Positions 4,526 through 27,437 of a stretch of DNA of 45,073 nucleotides are shown here, piece after piece. The stretch is from Gammaproteobacteria bacterium. Its GTDB lineage: Bacteria > Pseudomonadota > Gammaproteobacteria > Chromatiales > Chromatiaceae. A program made the position numbers and the translations under genes. The notes below the pieces were generated by a model that saw nothing but the letters and a program-made list of their open reading frames with translations, made no database searches and was not told where the DNA came from. The stretch is from assembly GCA_009928645.1 (NCBI GenBank), contig SACH01000020.1, forward strand, positions 1 to 45,073. The letters are read 5' to 3'. How positions within the stretch are numbered: the first letter of the stretch is position 1; every line of letters begins with the position of its first letter.

Positions 4526-5434
4526 ATGCAGTCTATTTTCGTTGCCATCGCCTTCATGGGTTCCCTGGGCCTGATGTTGGCCAGCATCCTGGTCCTGGCT
4601 AATAAGCGCTTCTTCGTCTTCGAAGACCCCCGCATCGATCAGGTCGAGGACCTGCTGCCCAAGGCCAATTGCGGCGCCTGCGGCACGGCGGGCTGTCGCC
4701 CCTTCGCCGAACTGCTGGTCCAGGGGGAGATCGAGCCGGCCAAGTGCACCGTCAACTCCAAGGACATGAACCAGGTCATCGCCACCTTCCTCGGCGTCGA
4801 CCTGGGCAGGGAGGAGAAGCGCGTCGCTCGGCTGGCCTGCGCCGGCGGCAGCCACGTCGCCTATATCCGCGCCTCTTATGGCGGTATCGAATCCTGTCGA
4901 GCGGCGGCCCTGGTCTCCGGTGGCGGCAAGGGCTGCGCCTGGGGCTGTTTGGGCTTGGGTGACTGCGCCGCGGTTTGTGACTTTGACGCCATCCGCATGG
5001 ACCGCCACGGTCTGCCGGTGGTGTCGGAGGTCGACTGCACCGCCTGTGGTGACTGTGTCGAGGTCTGCCCCAAGGACCTGTTCAGCCTCCACCCCGTCAG
5101 CCACCAACTTTGGGTCGCCTGCCACAACCAGGCTTTTGGTGACGAGGCCGAGAAGGAGTGCGAGGTCATCTGCACCGCCTGCGGCCGCTGTGCCCAGGAT
5201 TCCCCCGAGGGCCTGATCGAGATTCGCGACAATCTGGCGGTGATCGATTACGCCAAGAACAGCCTCGCCTCCCGGGTGGCCATCGAGCGCTGCCCGACCG
5301 GGGCCATCGTCTGGCTGGAGAAGGGCGGCAAGGCCGAAAAGGGCCGCGACGCGCGCAAGGTGGTGCGCAAGGAGGCCCTCCAGCCTGTGGCCAGCCGGCC
5401 AAAATCACCCCCCAGGGTCGCGACCCGCGCCTAG
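4526..5434 (+). CDS. rnfB: RnfB, ferredoxin-like iron-sulfur subunit of the Rnf complex
   Basis: 302 residues, the long form of RnfB. Residues 5-25 form a membrane anchor. C49, C52, C57 and C74 (CGACGTAGC...PAKC) form the family's 4Fe-4S site. C137/C141/C147/C151 form a second site, and C171/C174/C177/C181 give a classic CxxCxxCxxxC. The last ferredoxin-like pair is reduced: C216, C219, C222 and C256 (ERCPTGAI) remain, but the fourth Cys of that motif is S226 and the partner CxxCxxC is absent (DYAKNSLASR), so one cluster of the pair is probably lost. RnfB accepts electrons from ferredoxin at the cytoplasmic face and passes them into the complex. It is the first gene of the operon; the basic tail after residue 265 has no recognisable motif. 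Confidence 0.93.
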   Translation: MQSIFVAIAFMGSLGLMLASILVLANKRFFVFEDPRIDQVEDLLPKANCGACGTAGCRPFAELLVQGEIEPAKCTVNSKDMNQVIATFLGVDLGREEKRVARLACAGGSHVAYIRASYGGIESCRAAALVSGGGKGCAWGCLGLGDCAAVCDFDAIRMDRHGLPVVSEVDCTACGDCVEVCPKDLFSLHPVSHQLWVACHNQAFGDEAEKECEVICTACGRCAQDSPEGLIEIRDNLAVIDYAKNSLASRVAIERCPTGAIVWLEKGGKAEKGRDARKVVRKEALQPVASRPKSPPRVATRA

Positions 5435-5604: not shown

Positions 5605-8600
5605 ATGTTCGGAAAAAAAGACGAGAAGTCCTTTAAGTATCCTGGCGTTCGGCAGGCGATGGACGGCAATGCCGCCGTCATCCTCTGCGAGCGGGAGGCC
5701 TCGGATGCAGCGGGCGCTTATCCCATCACCCCCTCCACCCAGATGGGCGAGTTCTGGGCCGAGGAGGTCGCCAAGGGCCATCTCAATGTCTCCGGCAAGC
5801 CGCTGATCTTCGTCGAGCCCGAATCCGAGCACGCGGCGGCGGCGGTCACCGCCGGTATGGCCATGACCGGGCTGCGCGCTACCAACTTCTCCTCGGCCCA
5901 AGGCGTGGCCTTCATGCACGAGTCGCTCTATGCCGCGGTCGGCAAGCGCCTACCTTACGTGCTCAATATCGGCTGCCGCGCCATCACCAAGGCCAGTCTC
6001 AATGTCCACTGCGCCCACGACGATTACCACTGCATCGACGACACCGGCTTCTTCCAGGTCTTCGGTAAGAACACCCAGGAAGCGGCGGACCTCAACCTCA
6101 TCGGCCACAAGATCGCCGAGCTGTCCCTGACCCCGGCGGCGGTGGCCCAGGACGGCTTTCTCACCACTCACCTCATCGAGCCCCTGATGGTGCCGGAGCG
6201 GGAACTGGTCGCCGAATTCCTCGGCCGCCCGGATGACATCATCGTCTGTCCGACCCCGGCCCAGAAGCTGGTTTACGGCGAGACCCGCCGCCGCGTCCCC
6301 GAGGTCTGGGACGTGGACAAGCCCATGCAATCCGGCACGGTGCAGAACCAGGACGCCTACATGCAGGCGGTGGCGGCTCAGCGGCCCTACTTCTTCCAGC
6401 ACATCGCCCCCCTGGCCGACCAGGTGATGGACGAGTATTACCAGCTCACTGGTCGTCGTTATCGCCGTGTCACTGGCTACCGCACCGAGGACGCCGAGTA
6501 CCTGATCCTGGGCCAGGGCAGCATGATCCTCCAGGCCGAGGCGGTAGCCGACTACCTGCGCGAGACCCGCAAGCTCAAGGTTGGCGTGGTCAACCTGACC
6601 ATGTACCGTCCCTTCCCCGGCGACCTCCTCGGCCCCCTGCTCAAGGGCAAGCGTGGCGTGGCGGTGCTGGAGCGGACCGACCAGCCCCTGGCGGAGGATC
6701 TGCCCATCATGCGCGAGGTTCGCGCCGCCCTCTCCAAGTGTCTGGAGAACGGCGCGATCGAGCGCAACGAGTCGCTCCCCTACCCGGCCTATGACAGCTA
6801 CAAGTCGGGCGACATGCCGCGACTCTATTCCGGCTGCTACGGCCTGGGTTCCCGCGACCTCCAGCCCGAGGGCCTGATCGCCGCCATCGAGAACATGCTC
6901 CCCGCCGGCCGGCGGCAGAAGTTCTTCTATCTTTCTGTGGACTTCATGCGTGAGGCCACCGACCCCAAGGATGAGATCCGCCTCCAGGCCCTCAAGGATG
7001 CCTACCCGGCGGCCGCCAGCCTGGCCCTCAAGGGCAGCGAGAACCCCAACCTGCTGCCCAAGGGCGCCATCACGGTGCGCATGCACTCGGTGGGCGGCTG
7101 GGGGGCCGTGACCACCGGCAAGAACCTGGCCATGACCCTCTACGACCTGCTGGGCTTCGACATCCGCGCCAACCCCAAGTACGGCTCGGAGAAAAAGGGC
7201 CAGCCCACCACCTACTTCCTGTCCGCGGCCCCGGAGCCCATCCGCCTCAACTGCGAGTACACCTACGTCGACGTGGTGATGTCGCCGGACCCCAATGTCT
7301 TCACCCACTCCAACCCCCTGTCCGGGCTGAAGAAGGGCGGCGTCTTCATCATCCAGTCCAGCCTTGGCAACGCCGAGGCAGTGTGGGCCACTATCCCCAG
7401 CGAGGCCCGGCGCTTCATCGTCGATCAGGAGATCCACGTCTTCTACGTCGACGGCTTCAAGATCGCCCGTGACGAGGCCTCGGACCCGGAGCTTCAGTTC
7501 CGCATGCAGGGCAACGCCTTCCAGGGCGCCTTCTTCGCCGCCTCGCCCCTCATGGAGCGTGCTGGTCTCGACGAGAACGGCCTGTTCCAGGCCATCGAGG
7601 ATCAATTGCGGTCCAAGTTCGGCGGCAAGGGCGAGCGGGTGGTGCAGGACAACCTGCGGGTGGTGCGCCGCGGCTTCGACGAGATCGTCGAGATCAAGGA
7701 CAAGCCCCTCAACGTCGGCCAGCTCATCCCCCACAAGACCTCCAAGCTGCCGATCATGCTTAAGCAGTTGCCGGAAGGCGACGGCTTCGTGTCCGATGTC
7801 CACCGCTTCTGGCGCCAGACCGGCTACTTCTACGCCACCGGCCGCGGTAACGGCAACCTGGCGGATCCTTACATGGCCATGAGCCTGATGCCGGCCTCCA
7901 CCGGCGTCTACCGCGACATGACCCAGATCCGCTTCGAGTATCCCAAGTTCCTGCCGGAGAACTGCACCGCCTGCGGCGGCTGCTTCTCCACCTGCCCGGA
8001 CTCCGCCATCCCCGGCCTGGTCAACACCGTGGCCGACATCTTCAACACCGCCATCCTGCGGGTGGAGAAGGGGATGCCCACCCAGTACCTGCGCCGCGAG
8101 ACGCGGAAGGTCGAGAAGCGCCTGCGGGAACTGCTGGACGGGGCCGGCGAGGGCGCCGATACCCGCACCCTCCTCGACCAGGCGGTCCTGGAGACCCTGG
8201 CCGCCTCCGAACTGCAAGGAGAGCAGAAGGCGTCCCTGGAGAAAGAGATGGGCCTGTTTCTGGAGGCCCTGAGCGGCTTCCAGTTGGCCATCACCAAGCC
8301 CTATTGGACCAACCGGGAGAAGAAGGAGAAGGGCAGCGGCGGCCTGTTCAGCATCACCGTCAACCCCTACACCTGTAAGGGCTGCATGGAATGTATCGAG
8401 GTCTGTGCAGACGGCGCCCTGGTGGCCGAGCCCCAGACCGAGGACGCCATCGCTGAAATGCGCGCCAAATGGGCCTTCTGGCTCGACCTGCCGACCACCC
8501 ACCCAGACTTCATCCGCATCGACGATCTCAACGAGAAGGTCGGCGCCCTGGAGACCCTGCTCCTCGATAAGGCCAACTACCAGTCCATGGTCTCCGGCGA

Positions 8601-10524
8601 CGGCGCCTGCATGGGCTGCGGCGAGAAGACCGTCATCCACCTCTTCACCGGCACCGTCACCGCCTTGATGCAGGGGCGGGTCAAGCAGCACCTGGCGGAA
8701 CTCGATGACCTCATCAACCGTCTGGAGACCCACGTGCGCCTCAAGCTGGCGGCGGGGGTGGACCTCAGCGACCCGACGGCCATCGCCCAGGTCCTGAACC
8801 GTCACCAGGACGCCGACTTAACCCTGGGTGAGCTGTCCAGCGAGCTGGACCAGGGCCGCAAGGTTAACCCCGTCGATCCCGAGTGGCTCGGCTGGGTCAC
8901 CGGCCTCCTCGGCAAGCTGCGCGACCTCAAGGCCCGCTATACCGACACCCAGCCCCGGGCGGAGATGGGCATCATCAACGCCACCGGCTGCACCTCGGTC
9001 TGGGGCTCCACCTTCCCCTACAACCCCTACCCCTTCCCCTGGACCAGCCACCTCTTCCAGGACTCCCCCTCGGTGGCCATGGGCATCTTCGAGGGCCACA
9101 TGCGCAAGATGGCCGAGGGCTTCAAGGCGGTGCGCCAGGCCCGGATCGAGCTGGATAAGGGCTACAAGGCCGCCGAGCACGCGGCCTTCTTCACCTACTT
9201 CAACTGGAAGGACTTCAGCGAGGAGGAGTGGCGCCTCTGCCCGCCGGTGGTCAGCGTGGGCGGTGACGGCGCCATGTACGACATTGGCTTCCAGAACCTG
9301 TCCCGGGCGCTCATGTCCGGCACGCCGATCAAGGTCCTGGTCCTCGACACCCAGGTTTACTCCAACACCGGCGGCCAGGCCTGCACCTCCGGCTTCATCG
9401 GCCAGGTGGCGGACATGTCGCCCTACGGCAAGGCCTGGAAGGGCAAGACCGAGATCCGCAAGGAGATGGGCCTCATCGGCATGGCCCACCGCACCAGCTT
9501 CGTGCTCCAGGGCAGCATCTCCCACATGAGCCACCTGCTGGAGGGCTACATCGACGGCCTCAACAGCCGCCGCCCGGCCCTGTTCAACATCTACGCCGTC
9601 TGCCAGCCGGAGCATGGCGTCCCCGACGACCACTCCGAGCACCAGAGCCGCCTGGCGGTGGAGTCCCGCGCCTATCCCCTGTTCCGCTTCGACCCGGACG
9701 CCGGCACCACCTTTGAGGAGTGCTGCTCCATCGAGGGCAACCCCAATCTGGACGATGACTGGATCAGTTGGGCCATCAAGTACCAGGACGAGGCCGGCAA
9801 GGAGCAGCAACTGGAACTGCCCATGACCTTCGCCGACTTCGCCATGACCGAGGGCCGTTTCCGCAAGCACTTCCGCAAGGCCCCGCCGGAGACCTGGAAC
9901 GACGCCATGGTGCCCCTGCACGATTTCCTCGACCTGGACGCCGACGACCGCGAGGGCAAGTTCCCCTTCGTCTGGGGCGTGGACGGCAAGAACCGCCTGA
10001 TGCGCGCCCTGGTCTCCCAGGAACTGGTCCTCTCCTGCGAGGAGCGGCGCGGCTTCTGGCGCCAGTTGCGCGGCATCGTCGGCCTGGATCGGCAGTTCGA
10101 CGAGGAAGCGGTGCGCAACCAGGCCAAGGCCGAGATGGCGCAGAAGCTCACCGCCGGCCTCTTCGCCCTCGCCACCGGTGGCGCCACCGGCCTGGGGTCC
10201 GGGCTGCTGGCGGACTTCGCCCCGGCGGGTGGCGGCAACGGCACCGGCCAGACGGCCGGCGCGGCCGCGGGGGGCTGGGAGCCGGTGTGGATCGAGACCC
10301 CCGAGTGCACCGCCTGCGACGAGTGCATGAACATCAACCCCAAGATCTTCGCCTACAACGACCAGAAGCAGGCCGTCATCCTCGACCCCAAGGGCGGCCC
10401 CTTCAAGGATGTCGTCAAGGCGGCGGAGAAGTGCACCGCCGGCTGCATCCACCCCGGCACGCCCTTTAACCCGGCGGAAAAGGATGTCGACAAGCTCGTC
10501 GCCCGGGCGGCCAAGTACCAGTAA
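5605..10524 (+). CDS. nifJ: pyruvate:ferredoxin (flavodoxin) oxidoreductase with C-terminal fused ferredoxin domain
   Basis: 1639 residues against about 1170-1200 for a usual single-chain PFOR. It catalyses pyruvate + CoA + oxidised ferredoxin to acetyl-CoA + CO2 + reduced ferredoxin, reversibly. Order: pyrimidine-binding and transketolase-C-like domains (about 1-450; YPITPSTQMGEFWAE), gamma domain (about 490-680; GGWGAVTTGKNLA), two 4Fe-4S motifs (from C787, CTACGGCFSTC; from C924, CKGCMECIEVC), GDGACMGCGE at 998-1007 with proximal-cluster Cys, and the thiamine-diphosphate domain (ATGCTSVWGST around 1126; GGDGAMYDIGFQN around 1219). Two spacers are long: about 137 residues between the 4Fe-4S motifs and about 120 between GACMGCGE and ATGC. 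A Gly/Ala-rich linker (about 1520-1558) leads to an extra ferredoxin-like domain with C1568, C1571, C1574 and C1610. It lies between rnfB and rnfC, so the fused ferredoxin may hand electrons directly to Rnf. Confidence 0.93.
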   Translation: MFGKKDEKSFKYPGVRQAMDGNAAVILCEREASDAAGAYPITPSTQMGEFWAEEVAKGHLNVSGKPLIFVEPESEHAAAAVTAGMAMTGLRATNFSSAQGVAFMHESLYAAVGKRLPYVLNIGCRAITKASLNVHCAHDDYHCIDDTGFFQVFGKNTQEAADLNLIGHKIAELSLTPAAVAQDGFLTTHLIEPLMVPERELVAEFLGRPDDIIVCPTPAQKLVYGETRRRVPEVWDVDKPMQSGTVQNQDAYMQAVAAQRPYFFQHIAPLADQVMDEYYQLTGRRYRRVTGYRTEDAEYLILGQGSMILQAEAVADYLRETRKLKVGVVNLTMYRPFPGDLLGPLLKGKRGVAVLERTDQPLAEDLPIMREVRAALSKCLENGAIERNESLPYPAYDSYKSGDMPRLYSGCYGLGSRDLQPEGLIAAIENMLPAGRRQKFFYLSVDFMREATDPKDEIRLQALKDAYPAAASLALKGSENPNLLPKGAITVRMHSVGGWGAVTTGKNLAMTLYDLLGFDIRANPKYGSEKKGQPTTYFLSAAPEPIRLNCEYTYVDVVMSPDPNVFTHSNPLSGLKKGGVFIIQSSLGNAEAVWATIPSEARRFIVDQEIHVFYVDGFKIARDEASDPELQFRMQGNAFQGAFFAASPLMERAGLDENGLFQAIEDQLRSKFGGKGERVVQDNLRVVRRGFDEIVEIKDKPLNVGQLIPHKTSKLPIMLKQLPEGDGFVSDVHRFWRQTGYFYATGRGNGNLADPYMAMSLMPASTGVYRDMTQIRFEYPKFLPENCTACGGCFSTCPDSAIPGLVNTVADIFNTAILRVEKGMPTQYLRRETRKVEKRLRELLDGAGEGADTRTLLDQAVLETLAASELQGEQKASLEKEMGLFLEALSGFQLAITKPYWTNREKKEKGSGGLFSITVNPYTCKGCMECIEVCADGALVAEPQTEDAIAEMRAKWAFWLDLPTTHPDFIRIDDLNEKVGALETLLLDKANYQSMVSGDGACMGCGEKTVIHLFTGTVTALMQGRVKQHLAELDDLINRLETHVRLKLAAGVDLSDPTAIAQVLNRHQDADLTLGELSSELDQGRKVNPVDPEWLGWVTGLLGKLRDLKARYTDTQPRAEMGIINATGCTSVWGSTFPYNPYPFPWTSHLFQDSPSVAMGIFEGHMRKMAEGFKAVRQARIELDKGYKAAEHAAFFTYFNWKDFSEEEWRLCPPVVSVGGDGAMYDIGFQNLSRALMSGTPIKVLVLDTQVYSNTGGQACTSGFIGQVADMSPYGKAWKGKTEIRKEMGLIGMAHRTSFVLQGSISHMSHLLEGYIDGLNSRRPALFNIYAVCQPEHGVPDDHSEHQSRLAVESRAYPLFRFDPDAGTTFEECCSIEGNPNLDDDWISWAIKYQDEAGKEQQLELPMTFADFAMTEGRFRKHFRKAPPETWNDAMVPLHDFLDLDADDREGKFPFVWGVDGKNRLMRALVSQELVLSCEERRGFWRQLRGIVGLDRQFDEEAVRNQAKAEMAQKLTAGLFALATGGATGLGSGLLADFAPAGGGNGTGQTAGAAAGGWEPVWIETPECTACDECMNINPKIFAYNDQKQAVILDPKGGPFKDVVKAAEKCTAGCIHPGTPFNPAEKDVDKLVARAAKYQ

Positions 10525-10539
10525 TGTGATGGAACGAAC

Positions 10540-11892
10540 ATGGGCATCATGAACTTCTTCCGCTCCACCAAGACCTTCGCCCACGGCATCCACCCCGTGG
10601 AGCACAAGGAACAGACGGCGGACAAGCCGATCCGGCGCCTGGGCTTCGCCCCCGAATTGGTGCTGCCCCTGGCGCAGCACCGGGGCAAACCCTCCCGGCC
10701 CGTCGTCAAAGTCGGTCAGGAGGTGGTCCGCGGAGAGCCCATCGCCGCAGCCGACGGGCTGATGTCGGTGCCCATCCATGCCCCGGCGGACGGCGTCATC
10801 CGCGGCATCGATCTGGCGCCGACCGCGGAGGGCCCCAGGGCCAGGGCCATCTTCCTCAAGGTCCTTCGCGCCTCCACCCAGGAGGTGCTCTACGAGCAGC
10901 CCCGGGACCTGGACAGCCTGACCCCGGATGAACTGGTAGCCGCCGTGCAGGACGCCGGCCTGGTGGGATTGGGCGGTGCCGCCTTCCCCAGTCACGTCAA
11001 GATGAGGCCGCCGGCGGGACATCCTATCCATACCCTGGTGGTCAACGGCTGTGAGTGCGAGCCTTACCTGACCTGTGACCATCGCCTGATGCTGGAGCGG
11101 CAAGATAGCATTATGGCCGGTATCCGCATCGCCCTGCGGGCGACCGGGGCCCAGCGGGCGGTGATCGGGGTCGAGGACAACAAGCCTGACGCCCTGGCCC
11201 GCCTGCGGGAGCGTATCCCCACCGATCTACCGGTGACCGTCCAAGCGGTGGAGACCAAGTACCCCCAAGGCGCCGAGAAGATGCTCATCAAGAGCCTCTT
11301 CAACCTGGAAGTCCCGGTGGGCGGCCTGACCCTGGACCTAGGCATCGCCGTCTACAACGTCGGCACCCTGGCGCAGATGGGCGAGCTCCTGCCCCGCGGC
11401 CGCGGGCTCATCGAACGGGTGGTGACCGTCAGCGGTCCCGCCATCTTCCGTCCCGGCAACTATCTGGTGCCCATCGGCACCCCCCTGCGCTTCCTGCTGG
11501 AGCAGACGGGGATGAGCGAGCAGGCCGGCGAGGTCATCCTCGGCGGGCCCATGATGGGGATGTCCGTGGCCTCTCTGGACGTGCCGGTGACCAAGGCCGT
11601 CTCGGGGGTGGTGGTCCTGGAGGCCCAGGACCCGGATCTGGCCCAACGCCAGGTGCTGCCCTGCATCAAGTGCGCTGCCTGTCTGGAGGCCTGCCCGGTC
11701 AAGCTCAACCCCTCCATGCTGGGTGAGCTGGCCCAGCATCGGGACTACGGGCGCATGGCGAGCGAGTACTACCTGGACCAGTGTTTCGAGTGCGGCTGCT
11801 GTGCCTACGTCTGCCCCTCCAACATCCCCCTGACTCAGTACTTCCGCATCGCCAAGGCCATCAACCGCGAACACCCGCCCAGGCCCAACTGA
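10540..11892 (+). CDS. rnfC: RnfC, NADH/FMN-binding peripheral subunit of the Rnf complex
   Basis: 450 residues, starting 15 nt after the nifJ stop. The N-terminal region carries the FAHGIHP motif and a barrel-sandwich segment (VKVGQEVVRGEPIA). The central part is the NuoF-like Rossmann domain for FMN and NADH (GLVGLGGAAFPSHVK, VVNGCECEPYLTCD, EDNKPDAL). Two C-terminal 4Fe-4S motifs begin at C375 (CIKCAACLEACP) and C415 (CFECGCCAYVCP). RnfC exchanges electrons with NAD(H) on the cytoplasmic side. The short C-terminus, without the long Ala/Lys repeat tail of enteric RnfC, resembles the clostridial and Bacteroidetes type. Confidence 0.95.
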   Translation: MGIMNFFRSTKTFAHGIHPVEHKEQTADKPIRRLGFAPELVLPLAQHRGKPSRPVVKVGQEVVRGEPIAAADGLMSVPIHAPADGVIRGIDLAPTAEGPRARAIFLKVLRASTQEVLYEQPRDLDSLTPDELVAAVQDAGLVGLGGAAFPSHVKMRPPAGHPIHTLVVNGCECEPYLTCDHRLMLERQDSIMAGIRIALRATGAQRAVIGVEDNKPDALARLRERIPTDLPVTVQAVETKYPQGAEKMLIKSLFNLEVPVGGLTLDLGIAVYNVGTLAQMGELLPRGRGLIERVVTVSGPAIFRPGNYLVPIGTPLRFLLEQTGMSEQAGEVILGGPMMGMSVASLDVPVTKAVSGVVVLEAQDPDLAQRQVLPCIKCAACLEACPVKLNPSMLGELAQHRDYGRMASEYYLDQCFECGCCAYVCPSNIPLTQYFRIAKAINREHPPRPN

Positions 11893-11914: not shown

Positions 11915-12958
11915 ATGTCGAGACCCATCGAGATCCGCACCTCCCCGCACCTGAAGCGGGCGCGCACCGTGCCGCAGATCATGCAGGGCGTGGTCTGGGC
12001 CCTGCTGCCCATCTGCGCCTTCGCGGTTGTCCAGTTTGGCCTCAGCGCCCTGCTGCTGCTGGTTACCACCACGCTGGTGGCCATGGCCACCGAGTACGGC
12101 TTCGCCCGCCTCTCTGGCCGGGGTAACACCCTCAACGACTGGAGCGTGGTCATCACCGGTCTGCTCCTGGGCCTGACCCTGCCACCGGGCTTCCCCCTGT
12201 GGATGGCGGCGGTGGCGGCCTTCGTCGGCGTCGCACTGGGCAAGTCCCTGTTTGGCGGTCTGGGCTTCAACGTCATGAACGCCGCCCTGGTGGGGCGCGC
12301 CTTCGCCCAGGCGGCCTTCCCGGTGGCCATCACCACCTGGACGCCGGCCTTCGCCCCCGGCCGCTTCTGGGAGCTGATCCCCTCGACCCTCACCCTGCCC
12401 TTCCTGCAGCCCGTGCCGGTGAAAGACTGGATCGCCGGGCTGAACATCGACGGCTTCACCGGCGCCACCCCCCTGGCCCTGCAGAAATTCCAGCAGATCG
12501 AGGTGAGCAGTCTGGACCTCTTCACCGGCATGGTCGCCGGCTCCGCCGGGGAGACCTCGGCGCTGCTGATCCTGGTCTGCGGCCTCTGGCTGGCCTATCA
12601 GCGCATGCTGGACTGGAAGATCCCGGTGGGGGTCATGCTCGGCGCGGTGCTGGTCGCCCTGCCCCTCTGGCTGCTGGATGGCAGCGTCTACCCCACGCCC
12701 TGGTTCGTGCTCTTCTCCGGGGGCCTGATGCTGGGAGCCTGGTTCATGGCCAGCGATATGGTCGGCTCGCCGGTTACCCCCTGGGGGGCCCTGGCCTATG
12801 GCCTCTTCATCGGCGTCCTGACCGTGGTCATCCGCCTCTTCGGCGGCCTCACCGAGGGCATCATGTACGCCATCCTCCTGGCCAACGCCGCCGCCCCCCT
12901 GATCTCGGCGGTCACCCAGCCGCGGGTCTATGGCGCTAAGCGGGAGGGGCGGTCATGA
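11915..12958 (+). CDS. rnfD: RnfD, membrane FMN-carrying subunit of the Rnf complex
   Basis: 347 residues with about nine or ten hydrophobic helices. The N-terminal SPHLKRARTVPQIM stretch and KSLFGGLGFNVMNAALVGRAF are family signatures. DGFTGATPLAL contains the covalent-FMN threonine, T185 by position, matching the S/TGAT rule for NqrB and RnfD. It forms part of the ion-translocating membrane core with RnfA, RnfE and RnfG. Its stop overlaps the rnfG start by 4 nt (ATGA), a sign of translational coupling. Flavinylation needs an ApbE transferase, which is not in the window. Confidence 0.95.
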   Translation: MSRPIEIRTSPHLKRARTVPQIMQGVVWALLPICAFAVVQFGLSALLLLVTTTLVAMATEYGFARLSGRGNTLNDWSVVITGLLLGLTLPPGFPLWMAAVAAFVGVALGKSLFGGLGFNVMNAALVGRAFAQAAFPVAITTWTPAFAPGRFWELIPSTLTLPFLQPVPVKDWIAGLNIDGFTGATPLALQKFQQIEVSSLDLFTGMVAGSAGETSALLILVCGLWLAYQRMLDWKIPVGVMLGAVLVALPLWLLDGSVYPTPWFVLFSGGLMLGAWFMASDMVGSPVTPWGALAYGLFIGVLTVVIRLFGGLTEGIMYAILLANAAAPLISAVTQPRVYGAKREGRS

Positions 12959-13857
12959 GCGCAACCCTTCCCGTTCAGTCCGGCACCTCGGCTCCGGCAG
13001 CGCTTCCGGCGCTATCTCCAAGCCCGATGCCTGGAGATGAATACGAACAGGCACCCGAACAGGCCGCTAATCAGGGTGCAAATCAGGCCGCGAACCGGAC
13101 CAGGACACTGACCACGGCACAGGCCTCGGCGCGGGCCACTGAACCGGCCGTTGAGCAGGCCCCTGCCACCCCCAGCCTGGCCATGCTGCTGACCCTAGGG
13201 CTCATCGCCGCCATCTCCGGCCTGCTGGTGGCGACGGCCTATGAGTACACCGCGCCCATCATCGCCGAGAAGGAGCGCCTCGCCACCGAGGCGGCAGTGT
13301 TGCGCATCCTCCCCAACGCCGTCGCCAAGCGCGATTTCGTCATCGACGCGGCGGGCCGCCTGGCCCCCGTGGACCCGGTAGCCGGGGGGGGCACCGGCGG
13401 GGGCGGTGGAGCGGCCGCGGGAGGCGGCGGTCTGGTCTATGCCGGCTACGACGCCCAGGGCCAGCTCCAGGGTCTGGCCTTCACCGGCGTCGGTAGCGGC
13501 TACGCCGGTCCCGTGGAGGTCCTGTTCGCCTACGACCCCCAGCGTCAGGTCATCGTCCGCAGCAAGGTCCTCAAATCCACCGAGACCCCGGGCTTCGGCG
13601 ACAAGCTGGACACGGACCCGGCCTTTCTGAAGAACCTGGAGGCCCTGGACGCCCGTCTCGACGCCACGGGTCAGGCCCTGGCCAACCCCATCGTCACCGT
13701 CAAGAACGGCACCAAGACCCAGCCCTGGCAGATCGACGCCATCACCGGCGCCACCCTCTCCTCCCGGGCGATGGGCAAGGCGGCCAACCACGCCGCCCAG
13801 CGCGCCGCCCCGGCGATCCAGCGCAGCCTGGCGCTGCTGGCCCAACCGTCAAACTAA
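12955..13857 (+). CDS. rnfG: RnfG, periplasmic flavoprotein subunit of the Rnf complex, with unusual N-terminal extension
   Basis: 300 residues. A single membrane helix (about residues 80-97, LTLGLIAAISGLLVATAYEY) precedes a periplasmic FMN-binding domain with DAITGATLSSRAM; T267 is the expected covalent FMN site. Usual RnfG starts a few residues before the helix, whereas this frame has about 75 hydrophilic residues first, with repeated QAxNQxAN and Ala/Pro/Glu-rich sequence. There is also a Gly-rich insertion (about residues 143-159) in the periplasmic part. The ATG at 12955 overlaps the rnfD stop, which argues that the extension is translated; an internal start near M79 cannot be excluded. 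Confidence 0.92.
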   Translation: MSATLPVQSGTSAPAALPALSPSPMPGDEYEQAPEQAANQGANQAANRTRTLTTAQASARATEPAVEQAPATPSLAMLLTLGLIAAISGLLVATAYEYTAPIIAEKERLATEAAVLRILPNAVAKRDFVIDAAGRLAPVDPVAGGGTGGGGGAAAGGGGLVYAGYDAQGQLQGLAFTGVGSGYAGPVEVLFAYDPQRQVIVRSKVLKSTETPGFGDKLDTDPAFLKNLEALDARLDATGQALANPIVTVKNGTKTQPWQIDAITGATLSSRAMGKAANHAAQRAAPAIQRSLALLAQPSN

Positions 13858-13874: not shown

Positions 13875-14573
13875 ATGGCTGAGGCATCCCAACCGGCGGC
13901 GGTCGCCAAGGCGGCGGCCGACCCCTTCAATCGCGAGGAGAACCTGACCGCGGACACCTTCCTGCGCGGCCTCTGGCAGGAGAACCCGGTCTTCGTCATG
14001 CTGCTCGGCATGTGCCCGGTGCTGGCGGTGACCAACTCCGCCATCAACGCCCTGGGGATGGGGCTGGCGACGACCTTCGTCCTGCTGGGCTCCGGGGCCC
14101 TGGTGTCCCTGCTGCGCCGCTGGATTCCCAAGCAGGTGCGCATCGCCAGTTACATCGTCATCATCGCCACCTTCGTCACCGTGGTGGACTATGCCATCCA
14201 TGCCATCAGCCTAGAGTTGTACGCCTCCCTGGGGGCCTTCATCCAGCTCATCGTCGTCAACTGCATCATCCTCGGGCGGGCCGAGGCCTATGCCTCCAAG
14301 CAACGGCTGTTGCCGACCCTGGTCAATGGCCTGGGGATGGGCCTGGGCTTCACCCTGGCCCTGTTCAGCCTGGGGTCGGTGCGCGAGATCCTCGGCAACG
14401 GCACCCTGTTTGGCGTCGCCCTCTTCGGCGACAGCTTCCAGCCCTGGCTGGTGATGATCCTGCCTCCCGGGGGCTTCTTCGTCCTCGGCACCTGGCTGCT
14501 GCTGTTCGCCTGGCTCAAGCAGCGGCGCGAGCGCCGCGTCCTCGCCTCCGCCGGAGCCGCCGCCCATGGCTAA
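13875..14573 (+). CDS. rnfE: RnfE, integral membrane subunit of the Rnf complex
   Basis: 232 residues, preceded by GGGAGG. Six hydrophobic helices; LRGLWQENPVFVMLLGMCPVLAVTNSAINALGMG is a RnfE/NqrD signature, and VNCIILGRAEAYASK is the second inverted half. The Cys in GMCP and VNCI match those proposed to bind an intramembrane 2Fe-2S cluster together with RnfA. It pairs with RnfA in an antiparallel arrangement in the ion-pumping core. It overlaps rnfA by 8 nt. Confidence 0.95.
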   Translation: MAEASQPAAVAKAAADPFNREENLTADTFLRGLWQENPVFVMLLGMCPVLAVTNSAINALGMGLATTFVLLGSGALVSLLRRWIPKQVRIASYIVIIATFVTVVDYAIHAISLELYASLGAFIQLIVVNCIILGRAEAYASKQRLLPTLVNGLGMGLGFTLALFSLGSVREILGNGTLFGVALFGDSFQPWLVMILPPGGFFVLGTWLLLFAWLKQRRERRVLASAGAAAHG

Positions 14574-15156
14574 CCCCTCCCTGCCCCTGATCTTTCTCGA
14601 CGCCGCGGTGGTCAACAACTTCGTGCTGGCCCTGTTCCTGGGCATCTGCCCCTTCCTCGGCACCTCCGCCAAGAAGGAGACGGCCCTGAACATGGGGCTG
14701 GCCACCACCTTCGTCATGGTCGTCAGTTCACTCAGCGCCTACGGGGTCAACTGGCTGCTGGTGGAACTCGAACTGGAATTCCTGCGCCTGATCTGCTTCA
14801 TCGCCATCATCGCCTCGGCGGTGCAACTGGTGGAGATGTTCGTCAAGAAGCACAGCCCTGCCCTGTTCCGCTCCCTGGGCATCTTCCTGCCCCTGATCAC
14901 CACCAACTGCGCCATCCTCGGCCTGGCCCTGTTCCAGACCGCCAAGGAGTACGACTTTCTCCAGAGCCTGGTCTACAGCCTGGGGGCCGGCACCGGCTTC
15001 ATGCTGGCCCTAATGCTCATGGCCGGCCTGCGCGAGAAGCTGGAACTGGCCAAGCTGCCGACGGTCAGCCAGGGCGCCGCCCTGAGCCTGATGCTGGCCG
15101 GGCTCCTGTCCCTGGCCTTCATGGGCTTCGCCGGCCTGGGGGGCTCGCATGGTTAG
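14566..15156 (+). CDS. rnfA: RnfA, integral membrane subunit of the Rnf complex
   Basis: 196 residues, six helices, homologous to NqrE. The signatures LFLGICPFLGTSAKKETALNMG and PLITTNCAILGLALF contain the two Cys that, with those of RnfE, fit the intramembrane 2Fe-2S site. Its start overlaps rnfE by 8 nt and its end overlaps the following small Cys-rich gene by 8 nt, so three membrane proteins are tightly coupled in translation. Confidence 0.95.
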   Translation: MANPSLPLIFLDAAVVNNFVLALFLGICPFLGTSAKKETALNMGLATTFVMVVSSLSAYGVNWLLVELELEFLRLICFIAIIASAVQLVEMFVKKHSPALFRSLGIFLPLITTNCAILGLALFQTAKEYDFLQSLVYSLGAGTGFMLALMLMAGLREKLELAKLPTVSQGAALSLMLAGLLSLAFMGFAGLGGSHG

Positions 15157-15334: not shown

Positions 15335-15529
15335 GGGTAGCCAGTCGCCGTACCCCACGGCATTGCCACCGGTTCACCGTCAATAGGCGCCAGTAACCAC
15401 TCGAAATCCACCACGGGTCCACAACGGCTCCCCCCTTGGCTGGCCGTGGTCCCCAGCGTGAAAACCACCAGCAACCTTTTTCGATCCTCAACCCCACTTG
15501 ACCTCCGCACTCCTCAAGGAACCCGCAAG

Positions 15530-16387
15530 ATGAGCGAACTCGAACCCCCCATCGGTCCCACGGTCGCGGCCCAGATCCTGGCATCCCGGCGCATCACCCC
15601 GGAGAAGGCGGTCGAGGTGCGCCATCTCACCCTGCGGGTCACGGACCCGGCCTTCCAGTTCATCGAGGGCCAGAGCATCGGCGTGGTGGTACCCGGCCCC
15701 CACCCCTTCGGCAACCCCTACCACCTGCGCCGCTACTCCATCGCCAACGCCCGCCCACGCCCCGAGGACGAGACCGTTGACCTGGATATCCTGGTGCGCC
15801 GTTGCTTCTACATCGACGATATCAGCGGCGAGCGCTACCCCGGCATCGCCTCCAACTTCCTCTGCGACGCCCAACCCGGACAGCCGATCACCCTCAGCGG
15901 CCCCTATCGCAGCCCCTTTCAGATGCCCCAGGACAAGGACGCCAACCTGCTGATGATCGGCACCGGCACCGGCGTCGCCCCCTTCCGCGCCTTTGCCCAG
16001 CTCATTTACGAGCGCTGCGGCGGCTGGGACGGCCAGGTGCGCCTGTTCTACGGCGGCCGCACCGGCCTGGACCTGGCCTACGCCAACGACGAGGAGACCA
16101 ACCTCGCCGATTATTACGACCAGCCCACCTTCAAGGCCTTCAAGTCCCTGGCCACCAATTCCCTGGTGGCCTCCTCCGATGCCCTGCAGCGCGGCCTGCG
16201 GGAGAACCTGGACGAGGTCTGGGAACTGGTCCAGGCGCCCAAGACCCACGTCTTCCTCGCCGGCCTGGGTAAGATCGCCCAGGTCCTTGACAAGGTGATG
16301 AGTGAGCGCGCCGGCTCCGCCGAGGCCTGGCAGACCCTGAAGCAGGGCATGATTCAGCAGGGTCGCTGGTCGGAGTTGATTTACTAA
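15530..16387 (+). CDS. ferredoxin-NADP+ reductase-type flavoprotein
   Basis: 285 residues from the ATG at 15530, chosen because AAGGA lies 9 nt upstream; the frame is open further upstream to 15446 but without a ribosome site. It has an FAD-binding domain with HLRRYSIAN and an NAD(P)-binding domain with MIGTGTGVAPFRAF, then FYGGRTGLDLAY and HVFLAGLG. The fold and motifs fit plant-type FNR, which moves electrons between reduced ferredoxin or flavodoxin and NADP+. The gap to the small Cys-rich gene is 195 nt, so it may have its own promoter, but orientation and function place it with the Rnf-PFOR module. Which nucleotide it prefers cannot be read with certainty. Confidence 0.85.
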   Translation: MSELEPPIGPTVAAQILASRRITPEKAVEVRHLTLRVTDPAFQFIEGQSIGVVVPGPHPFGNPYHLRRYSIANARPRPEDETVDLDILVRRCFYIDDISGERYPGIASNFLCDAQPGQPITLSGPYRSPFQMPQDKDANLLMIGTGTGVAPFRAFAQLIYERCGGWDGQVRLFYGGRTGLDLAYANDEETNLADYYDQPTFKAFKSLATNSLVASSDALQRGLRENLDEVWELVQAPKTHVFLAGLGKIAQVLDKVMSERAGSAEAWQTLKQGMIQQGRWSELIY

Positions 16388-22406: not shown

Positions 22407-27347
<4,941 letters not shown>

Positions 27348-27437
27348 ATCAATTACTCTTGTTGTTGGCCGCTGCAACACCTGGAGGGCTCTCGGAACCA
27401 ATGAGTCAGTTACCGAAAGGCTCCCCTTGAGTGGCAA

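Follow-up and report, generated by a model that had tools for sequence, protein, structure and literature searches.

A long PFOR with a predicted C-terminal ferredoxin, encoded in Rnf operons of five phyla and probably dedicated to the Rnf ion pump

The electrons that PFOR withdraws from pyruvate normally go to a shared pool of ferredoxin, and in the textbook case of the clostridia soluble ferredoxin connects PFOR with Rnf. The couples concerned lie near -500 mV (pyruvate/acetyl-CoA) and near -320 mV (NAD+/NADH), so that the step from pyruvate to NAD+ can pay for ion transport; in the pyruvate and 2-oxoglutarate dehydrogenases (PDH and OGDH), the energy of the drop from a 2-oxoacid to NAD+ is not conserved. 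Two relatives of the enzyme described here carry additional C-terminal material: the PFOR of Desulfovibrio africanus, whose usual partner is ferredoxin I, has a protective C-terminal region, and the PNO of Euglena and Cryptosporidium is a PFOR fused to a CPR-like domain, which places a redox domain at its C-terminus.

The location of PFOR genes inside an rnf operon has been reported before. In its passages on rnf, pyruvate and ferredoxin, the 2014 genome paper on the Solemya velum symbiont places PFOR genes between rnfB2 and rnfC2 and proposes pyruvate as the electron donor of Rnf2 (the rnf2 of this gill symbiont is locus L032 of the present analysis), and those passages contain no mention of a ferredoxin tail, of insertions, of a spread across phyla or of a KorAB version (PMC4287430). 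Papers on tubeworm symbionts list Rnf among rTCA gene clusters, together with a PFOR-like gene (PMC6315080, PMC11636981). In the genome paper on Allochromatium vinosum, what the three rnf clusters of this organism do is described as entirely unclear; the word PFOR is absent from a 2025 review of Rnf (PMC12174285) and from a study of rnf/nqr evolution (PMC4014512). In the main texts of the open-access literature, a search of which is weak evidence, no account was found of a tethered ferredoxin, of phylum-wide linkage or of adapters derived from a catalytically dead PFOR. The position of the gene is thus already known, and the tethered ferredoxin, the linkage across phyla and the dead adapters are apparently new, no report of them having been found.

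The window analyzed here (the whole stretch of 45,073 nucleotides, from a gammaproteobacterial draft genome of 851 contigs) has its PFOR gene between rnfB and rnfC, as in Solemya velum rnf2. The operon is ordered rnfB-PFOR-rnfCDGEA, followed by a plant-type FNR gene, and encodes all six Rnf subunits (A, B, C, D, E and G). Its features are as follows.

4526..5434, + strand: rnfB, polyferredoxin type, 302 aa
5605..10524, + strand: long PFOR with C-terminal ferredoxin, 1639 aa, open frame intact
5701..6738, + strand: POR_N and PFOR_II domains with YPITPST and EPESEH, PFOR residues 33-378
7093..7680, + strand: POR (gamma, CoA-binding) domain with YGSEKKG, PFOR residues 497-692
7963..7995, + strand: first distal [4Fe-4S] motif, residues 787-797, invariant in 73/73 homologues
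8020..8340, + strand: insertion 1, between the distal clusters, about residues 806-912
8374..8406, + strand: second distal [4Fe-4S] motif, residues 924-934
8602..8625, + strand: GACMGCGE, with proximal-cluster ligands C1002 and C1005
8638..8964, + strand: insertion 2, about residues 1012-1120
8965..9702, + strand: beta (TPP) domain with NATGC (C1129), GGDG, YSNTGGQ and C1333
9712..10164, + strand: post-beta extension, about residues 1370-1520
10165..10284, + strand: Gly/Ala-rich linker, residues ~1521-1560, poorly conserved
10285..10521, + strand: predicted one-cluster ferredoxin, residues 1561-1639, ligands C1568/1571/1574/1610
10540..11892, + strand: rnfC, starting 15 bases past the PFOR stop codon
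11915..12958, + strand: rnfD
12955..13857, + strand: rnfG (Pfam FMN_bind; TIGR01947 at 84.3 bits, under the cut-off of 102)
13875..14573, + strand: rnfE
14566..15156, + strand: rnfA
15446..16387, + strand: plant-type ferredoxin-NADP reductase-like protein (PetH/BoxA C-terminal type), accessory

The initial annotation had placed a PFOR of 1639 residues at 5605-10524; its coordinates, length and open frame are right, and the motif positions given there agreed to the residue with the recomputed cysteine positions. The protein carries the motif set of the superfamily (YPITPST, EPESEH, GGDG and YSNTGG) and 12 cysteines for three [4Fe-4S] clusters, of which C787/790/793/797 and C924/927/930/934 belong to the distal clusters and C1002, C1005, C1129 and C1333 to the proximal one, with every ligand invariant in an alignment of 73 full-length homologues. 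All five Pfam domains exceed their gathering scores (POR_N 33-262, PFOR_II 297-378, POR 497-692, TPP_enzyme_C 1214-1272 and Fer4_13 1566-1616). Because the 73 homologues are co-linear with the window protein from end to end, its length is no artefact, and an assembly or frame error, or read-through, has been ruled out as the source. In a search of the PDB, the best matches are the Moorella and D. africanus PFORs, which align over residues 16-812 and, as a separate hit, over the TPP domain; the equivalog model of the classical enzyme (TIGR02176) gives 380.6 bits, under its cut-off of 911, and the long PFOR is a diverged relative of that equivalog, outside its membership. Pyruvate is the predicted substrate, as the motifs match those of pyruvate enzymes.

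Two antisense open reading frames run opposite the PFOR gene (5950-8805, - strand, 951 aa, and 8818-11103, - strand, 761 aa), and are most likely a by-product of coding sequence of high G+C content. Farther along the window, 22407-27437 (- strand) was recognized by eye as encoding a 1676-aa protein in which a CheB/CheR-like methylesterase-methyltransferase is joined to PAS, histidine kinase and receiver parts.

Judged by its sequence, the C-terminal segment of 79 residues is a single-[4Fe-4S] ferredoxin of the Fd I type. Fer4_13 scores 27.9 bits against a gathering threshold of 24.5, and D. africanus ferredoxin I is the best match both of the segment itself (phmmer E 2.8e-6) and of a profile of 44 homologous tails compared with the PDB (1dax, E 4.5e-9). 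The four ligands (C1568, C1571, C1574 and C1610) are kept in 73/73, 73/73, 73/73 and 72/73 homologues, and nearby C1614 is not conserved, a pattern that fits the prediction from cluster binding. The ferredoxin-like domain that had been proposed for this region is therefore borne out at the level of profile matches and conserved ligands. The layout proposed with it, a Gly/Ala linker followed by CxxCxxC and C1610, also stands, with the correction that the linker sequence is unconserved: few parts of the protein are less conserved across the 73 homologues, and the linker is constant in presence and variable in sequence. The first search patterns contained part of the ferredoxin (CDECMNIN), so that conservation of the ferredoxin among the loci found with them was partly chosen; when the whole protein was used as the query against 369 evenly sampled Gammaproteobacteria, the 15 matches of full length extended to residue 1638-1639, and therefore all bear the tail. 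In the Solemya velum symbiont (L032 14560-14912, the same as L101), the ferredoxin lies in a different frame that is entered inside the Gly/Ala linker, which may represent a frameshift, a sequence error or a natural separation.

The body of the enzyme is enlarged as well. The starts of its two CxxCxxCxxxC motifs lie 137 residues apart and those of GxCxGCG and ATGC 126 apart, as compared to 57 and 27 in the classical-size, NifJ-type L132; the spacers of 137 and about 120 that had been noted earlier, and the classical values near 55 and 25 to which they were compared, thus hold up, the second spacer being 126 when measured from start to start. The two internal insertions reported at the outset are both present, but a third expansion had been overlooked: 216 residues (1345-1560) separate the TPP domain from the ferredoxin, versus ~99 in NifJ and split PFORs, and the post-beta extension and linker together are ~115 residues longer than in either. 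When used as profiles against PDB sequences, neither insertion returned a significant match, insertion 1 giving weak helical or coiled-coil matches only.

Neighboring genes were read at 80 loci drawn from one-genome-per-species data and at 13 loci from an evenly drawn sample of Gammaproteobacteria. A check suggested in the initial annotation, whether homologues with the same C-terminal domain co-occur with Rnf, has a uniform answer: rnfC lies directly 3' of PFOR and on the same strand wherever at least 1.5 kb of downstream sequence is available (82/82 loci), in five phyla (Pseudomonadota, Acidobacteriota, Bacteroidota, Calditrichota and Planctomycetota), and a complete rnfCDGEA is found wherever this sequence reaches at least 7.5 kb (70/70 loci), although these loci are mutually related and the counts are not independent. 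The rnfB gene is directly 5' of PFOR in 64 of 81 loci and at the end of the operon in 15 (the contigs of the other two are too short to tell), and the FNR gene is present in 49 of the 70 complete loci. Two gene orders occur among lineages, rnfB-PFOR-rnfC... and PFOR-rnfC...-FNR-rnfB; since the order varies by lineage yet the linkage persists, the linkage outlives rearrangement. Within the even gammaproteobacterial sample, rnfC adjoins PFOR in 12 loci read (L116-L117 and L119-L128), and at L118 rnfB is present and the contig stops on the rnfC side. A sample of 198 Bacteroidota genomes yielded full-length matches only in two genomes already known as carriers, which indicates that the operon is patchy in that phylum.

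The Rnf that accompanies the long PFOR forms a lineage of its own. In a tree of 79 RnfC rows, built with a quick search method and with ordinary Rnf drawn solely from the class to which the window belongs, 62/62 PFOR-linked sequences form one clade (SH-aLRT 99), outside of which fall the ordinary sequences, including the copy that this genome has on C427. In other phyla, there are three genomes in which the PFOR-linked rnfC was the sole rnfC found at E 1e-40. Because one gammaproteobacterium (L124, G483:C1) combines the gene order of Bacteroidota with an RnfC nested among those of Bacteroidota, it seems that the genes traveled together, probably by whole-operon transfer.

A sister clade of RnfC belongs to a second type of operon, ordered korA-korB-840 aa-rnfB-1526 aa-rnfCDGEA in 7/7 loci with readable flanks, from three phyla (L105, L107, L108, L129, L130, L169 from Calditrichota and L170 from Planctomycetota). 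Its 1526-aa protein aligns with PFOR along its length at ~30% identity, lacks the YPITPST, GGDG, NTGGQ and CoA motifs as well as all four proximal-cluster cysteines, and retains both distal clusters and both insertions in most copies; the L170 adapter has degraded motifs at the distal clusters too. The 840-aa protein carries the same ferredoxin tail, together with a beta-like region devoid of TPP motifs. Since these PFOR-like proteins are devoid of catalytic motifs, KorAB must perform the chemistry in the sister operon, and the fact that a PFOR body was kept after catalysis had been lost speaks for a role as an electron relay to Rnf, suggesting that the enlarged body and the ferredoxin serve electron delivery to that complex. 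Both operons stand in tandem on one Calditrichales contig (G057:C87; Kor-Rnf, L169, and PFOR-Rnf, L048). On the Gemmatirosa kalamazoonensis megaplasmid (NZ_CP007129.1, L177, 4128-19573), the order is korA-korB-rnfB-PFOR-rnfCDGEA with a catalytic, ferredoxin-tailed PFOR, and no 840-aa protein was found at this operon, which is a plausible intermediate between the two types.

In a PFOR tree rooted on NifJ (the L133 NifJ entry was left out), split PFORs branch first and Nfn-linked PFORs second, followed by all Rnf-linked types together (0.999), with the Gemmatirosa enzyme beside the pyruvate type (1.0). The split relatives (L131-L138; ~650 + 525 aa, 41-46% identity to the window PFOR) showed no ferredoxin, no insertions and no Rnf within ~8 kb, and classical NifJ has neither insertions nor ferredoxin tail; both serve as negative controls. 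The Nfn-linked PFOR, of 1692 aa, has its own C-terminal single-cluster domain (C1625/1628/1631/1681) and is encoded beside a 968-aa Nfn-like fusion of the PRK12779 type (L106 3722-11742; L111 97-6582), with no Rnf in the flanking sequence of these two loci; this may be a soluble counterpart whose ferredoxin is tethered.

These relatives bear upon the purpose of the insertions, which had been suggested to form a docking surface for Rnf. Between fixed anchors, the insertion lengths are 122 and 116 in the window PFOR, ~119 and 118 in the Kor adapters (where the ferredoxin is on a partner protein), 118 and 81 in the Nfn-linked PFOR, 57-65 and 22 in the split relatives (which have neither ferredoxin nor Rnf) and 42 and 17 in NifJ. 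Docking elements specific to Rnf must be rejected as stated, since the ferredoxin-tailed, Nfn-linked PFOR has the insertions without a nearby Rnf. The observation named in advance as contrary to that suggestion, insertions in ordinary PFORs unlinked to Rnf, was thus made in part: they were found apart from Rnf and not in ordinary PFORs. Their presence in the Nfn-linked enzyme and absence from the split relatives indicate, therefore, that the insertions accompany a dedicated ferredoxin and not Rnf as such, an association whose Nfn-linked side rests on two loci with neighbors.

The genetic case for dedication to Rnf is strong, and the long PFOR is likely to be a pyruvate oxidoreductase that works specifically for the Rnf ion pump. 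Electrons from pyruvate would pass to the proximal cluster, through the two distal clusters and on to the tethered ferredoxin, which, on its flexible linker, would swing from the PFOR body to RnfB. The net reaction would be pyruvate + CoA + NAD+ -> acetyl-CoA + CO2 + NADH, with Na+ or H+ pumped, and the gene arrangement suggests that pyruvate oxidation may be wired directly to ion pumping in this way; given enough ion gradient and NADH, the reverse reaction, pyruvate synthesis, might also be possible. The insertions would most likely cradle the dedicated ferredoxin or restrict its reach, and the plant-type FNR, if present, would probably draw on the same ferredoxin for NADPH. As for the two roles originally imagined for the tail, its use in directing electrons to Rnf gains from the tie of the gene to rnfC and rnfCDGEA at every informative locus, direct transfer from ferredoxin to RnfB being what we infer from it, and a putative independence from soluble ferredoxin is plausible.

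The alternative that survives best is the same machine run in reverse in this organism, which overlaps the preferred reading and differs from it in direction only: Rnf, supplied with NADH and an ion gradient, would reduce the tethered ferredoxin for the formation of pyruvate from acetyl-CoA and CO2. Rnf is reversible, and the closest named relative of the window PFOR in the one-genome-per-species data (95% identity) comes from a Candidatus Thiosymbion MAG; a paper on Kentron symbionts proposes that CO2 is assimilated through PFOR from stored PHA (PMC6593406). Either direction is compatible with the sequence. Synthesis as the function nevertheless appears rather unlikely, as the operon is also found in the Bacteroidota Algoriphagus and Marinoscillum, aerobic heterotrophs in which oxidation is the likelier direction.

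The chief rival to dedication is a soluble-ferredoxin route with mere co-regulation, in which the added cluster of PFOR is an internal relay, electrons go to the soluble pool and Rnf is simply used at the same time. Such a route would correspond to the clostridial arrangement; contact between PFOR and Rnf is a prediction, and operon linkage could arise from co-regulation alone. The window's own genome, moreover, encodes a NifJ piece (C177), PorABG (C292), PDH (E1, C407) and a second, ordinary Rnf (C427). Nonetheless, co-regulation would have to account for linkage without exception across five phyla despite altered gene order, for a private Rnf clade, for a ferredoxin that is kept in all, and for a sister operon that keeps dead PFOR bodies beside KorAB and Rnf, for which a mere neighbor has no need; it is accordingly regarded as unlikely.

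A further proposal, that the extra parts serve oxygen stability or dimer packing rather than electron delivery, draws on the many carriers that live with oxygen and on the precedent of the protective region in D. africanus PFOR; the invariant feature of the tail, however, is a full set of cluster ligands, which implies a redox function and makes this proposal very improbable, if less badly placed for the insertions alone than for the tail. Least probable of all is a ferredoxin that mainly serves the neighboring FNR, as in the pyruvate:NADP+ oxidoreductase (PNO) of Euglena: a PetH-like FNR is the last operon gene in the window and, in Bacteroidota, is placed between rnfA and rnfB, but the idea is weakened by the absence of FNR (never of Rnf) from 21/70 complete loci, among them Thiodiazotropha, Gallionellaceae and Novimethylophilus, whose PFORs retain the ferredoxin.

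Beyond dedication to Rnf, it may tentatively be proposed that PFOR and Rnf form one physical complex, an ion-pumping pyruvate:NAD+ oxidoreductase that operates without soluble ferredoxin, and that the sister complex does likewise for 2-oxoglutarate, with KorAB as the catalyst and two dead PFOR descendants as an electron cable. If so, PFOR-Rnf and KorAB-Rnf would be the ion-pumping equivalents of PDH and OGDH, and a dedicated wire from 2-oxoacid to Rnf would keep the energy as an ion gradient, or would allow pyruvate to be made from NADH, in sulfur symbionts, purple sulfur bacteria, iron oxidizers and Bacteroidota that are seldom credited with such chemistry. The tethered ferredoxin offers a testable case of electron channeling, and the dead-PFOR adapters that accompany KorAB provide a natural setting in which electron delivery is separated from catalysis.

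Compared with the PFORs of known structure, from D. africanus (1b0p) and Moorella thermoacetica (6cin), the window protein has the same catalytic motifs and 12 cluster ligands (whole-protein E 2e-86) and adds two insertions, a post-beta extension and the C-terminal ferredoxin, for a length of 1639 versus 1171-1232 residues. The tail shares the CxxCxxC...C ligands of D. africanus Fd I (1dax), but is covalently joined to PFOR through a linker. Like the PNO of Euglena and Cryptosporidium, the protein is a PFOR with a C-terminal redox domain; in place of a flavodoxin/NADPH reductase domain, of which Pfam finds none, the added domain is an iron-sulfur ferredoxin. The KorAB-Rnf operon shares a sister Rnf clade, a PFOR-like body with insertions and an Fd I-like ferredoxin, and differs in that KorAB carries out the chemistry, the ferredoxin resides on a separate 840-aa protein and the PFOR-like protein is catalytically dead. 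Finally, the Rnf (RnfABCDGE) complex of the window has the usual six subunits in the order rnfB...CDGEA, and is set apart from ordinary Rnf by its separate RnfC clade, by its long, polyferredoxin-type RnfB and by the PFOR gene within its operon.
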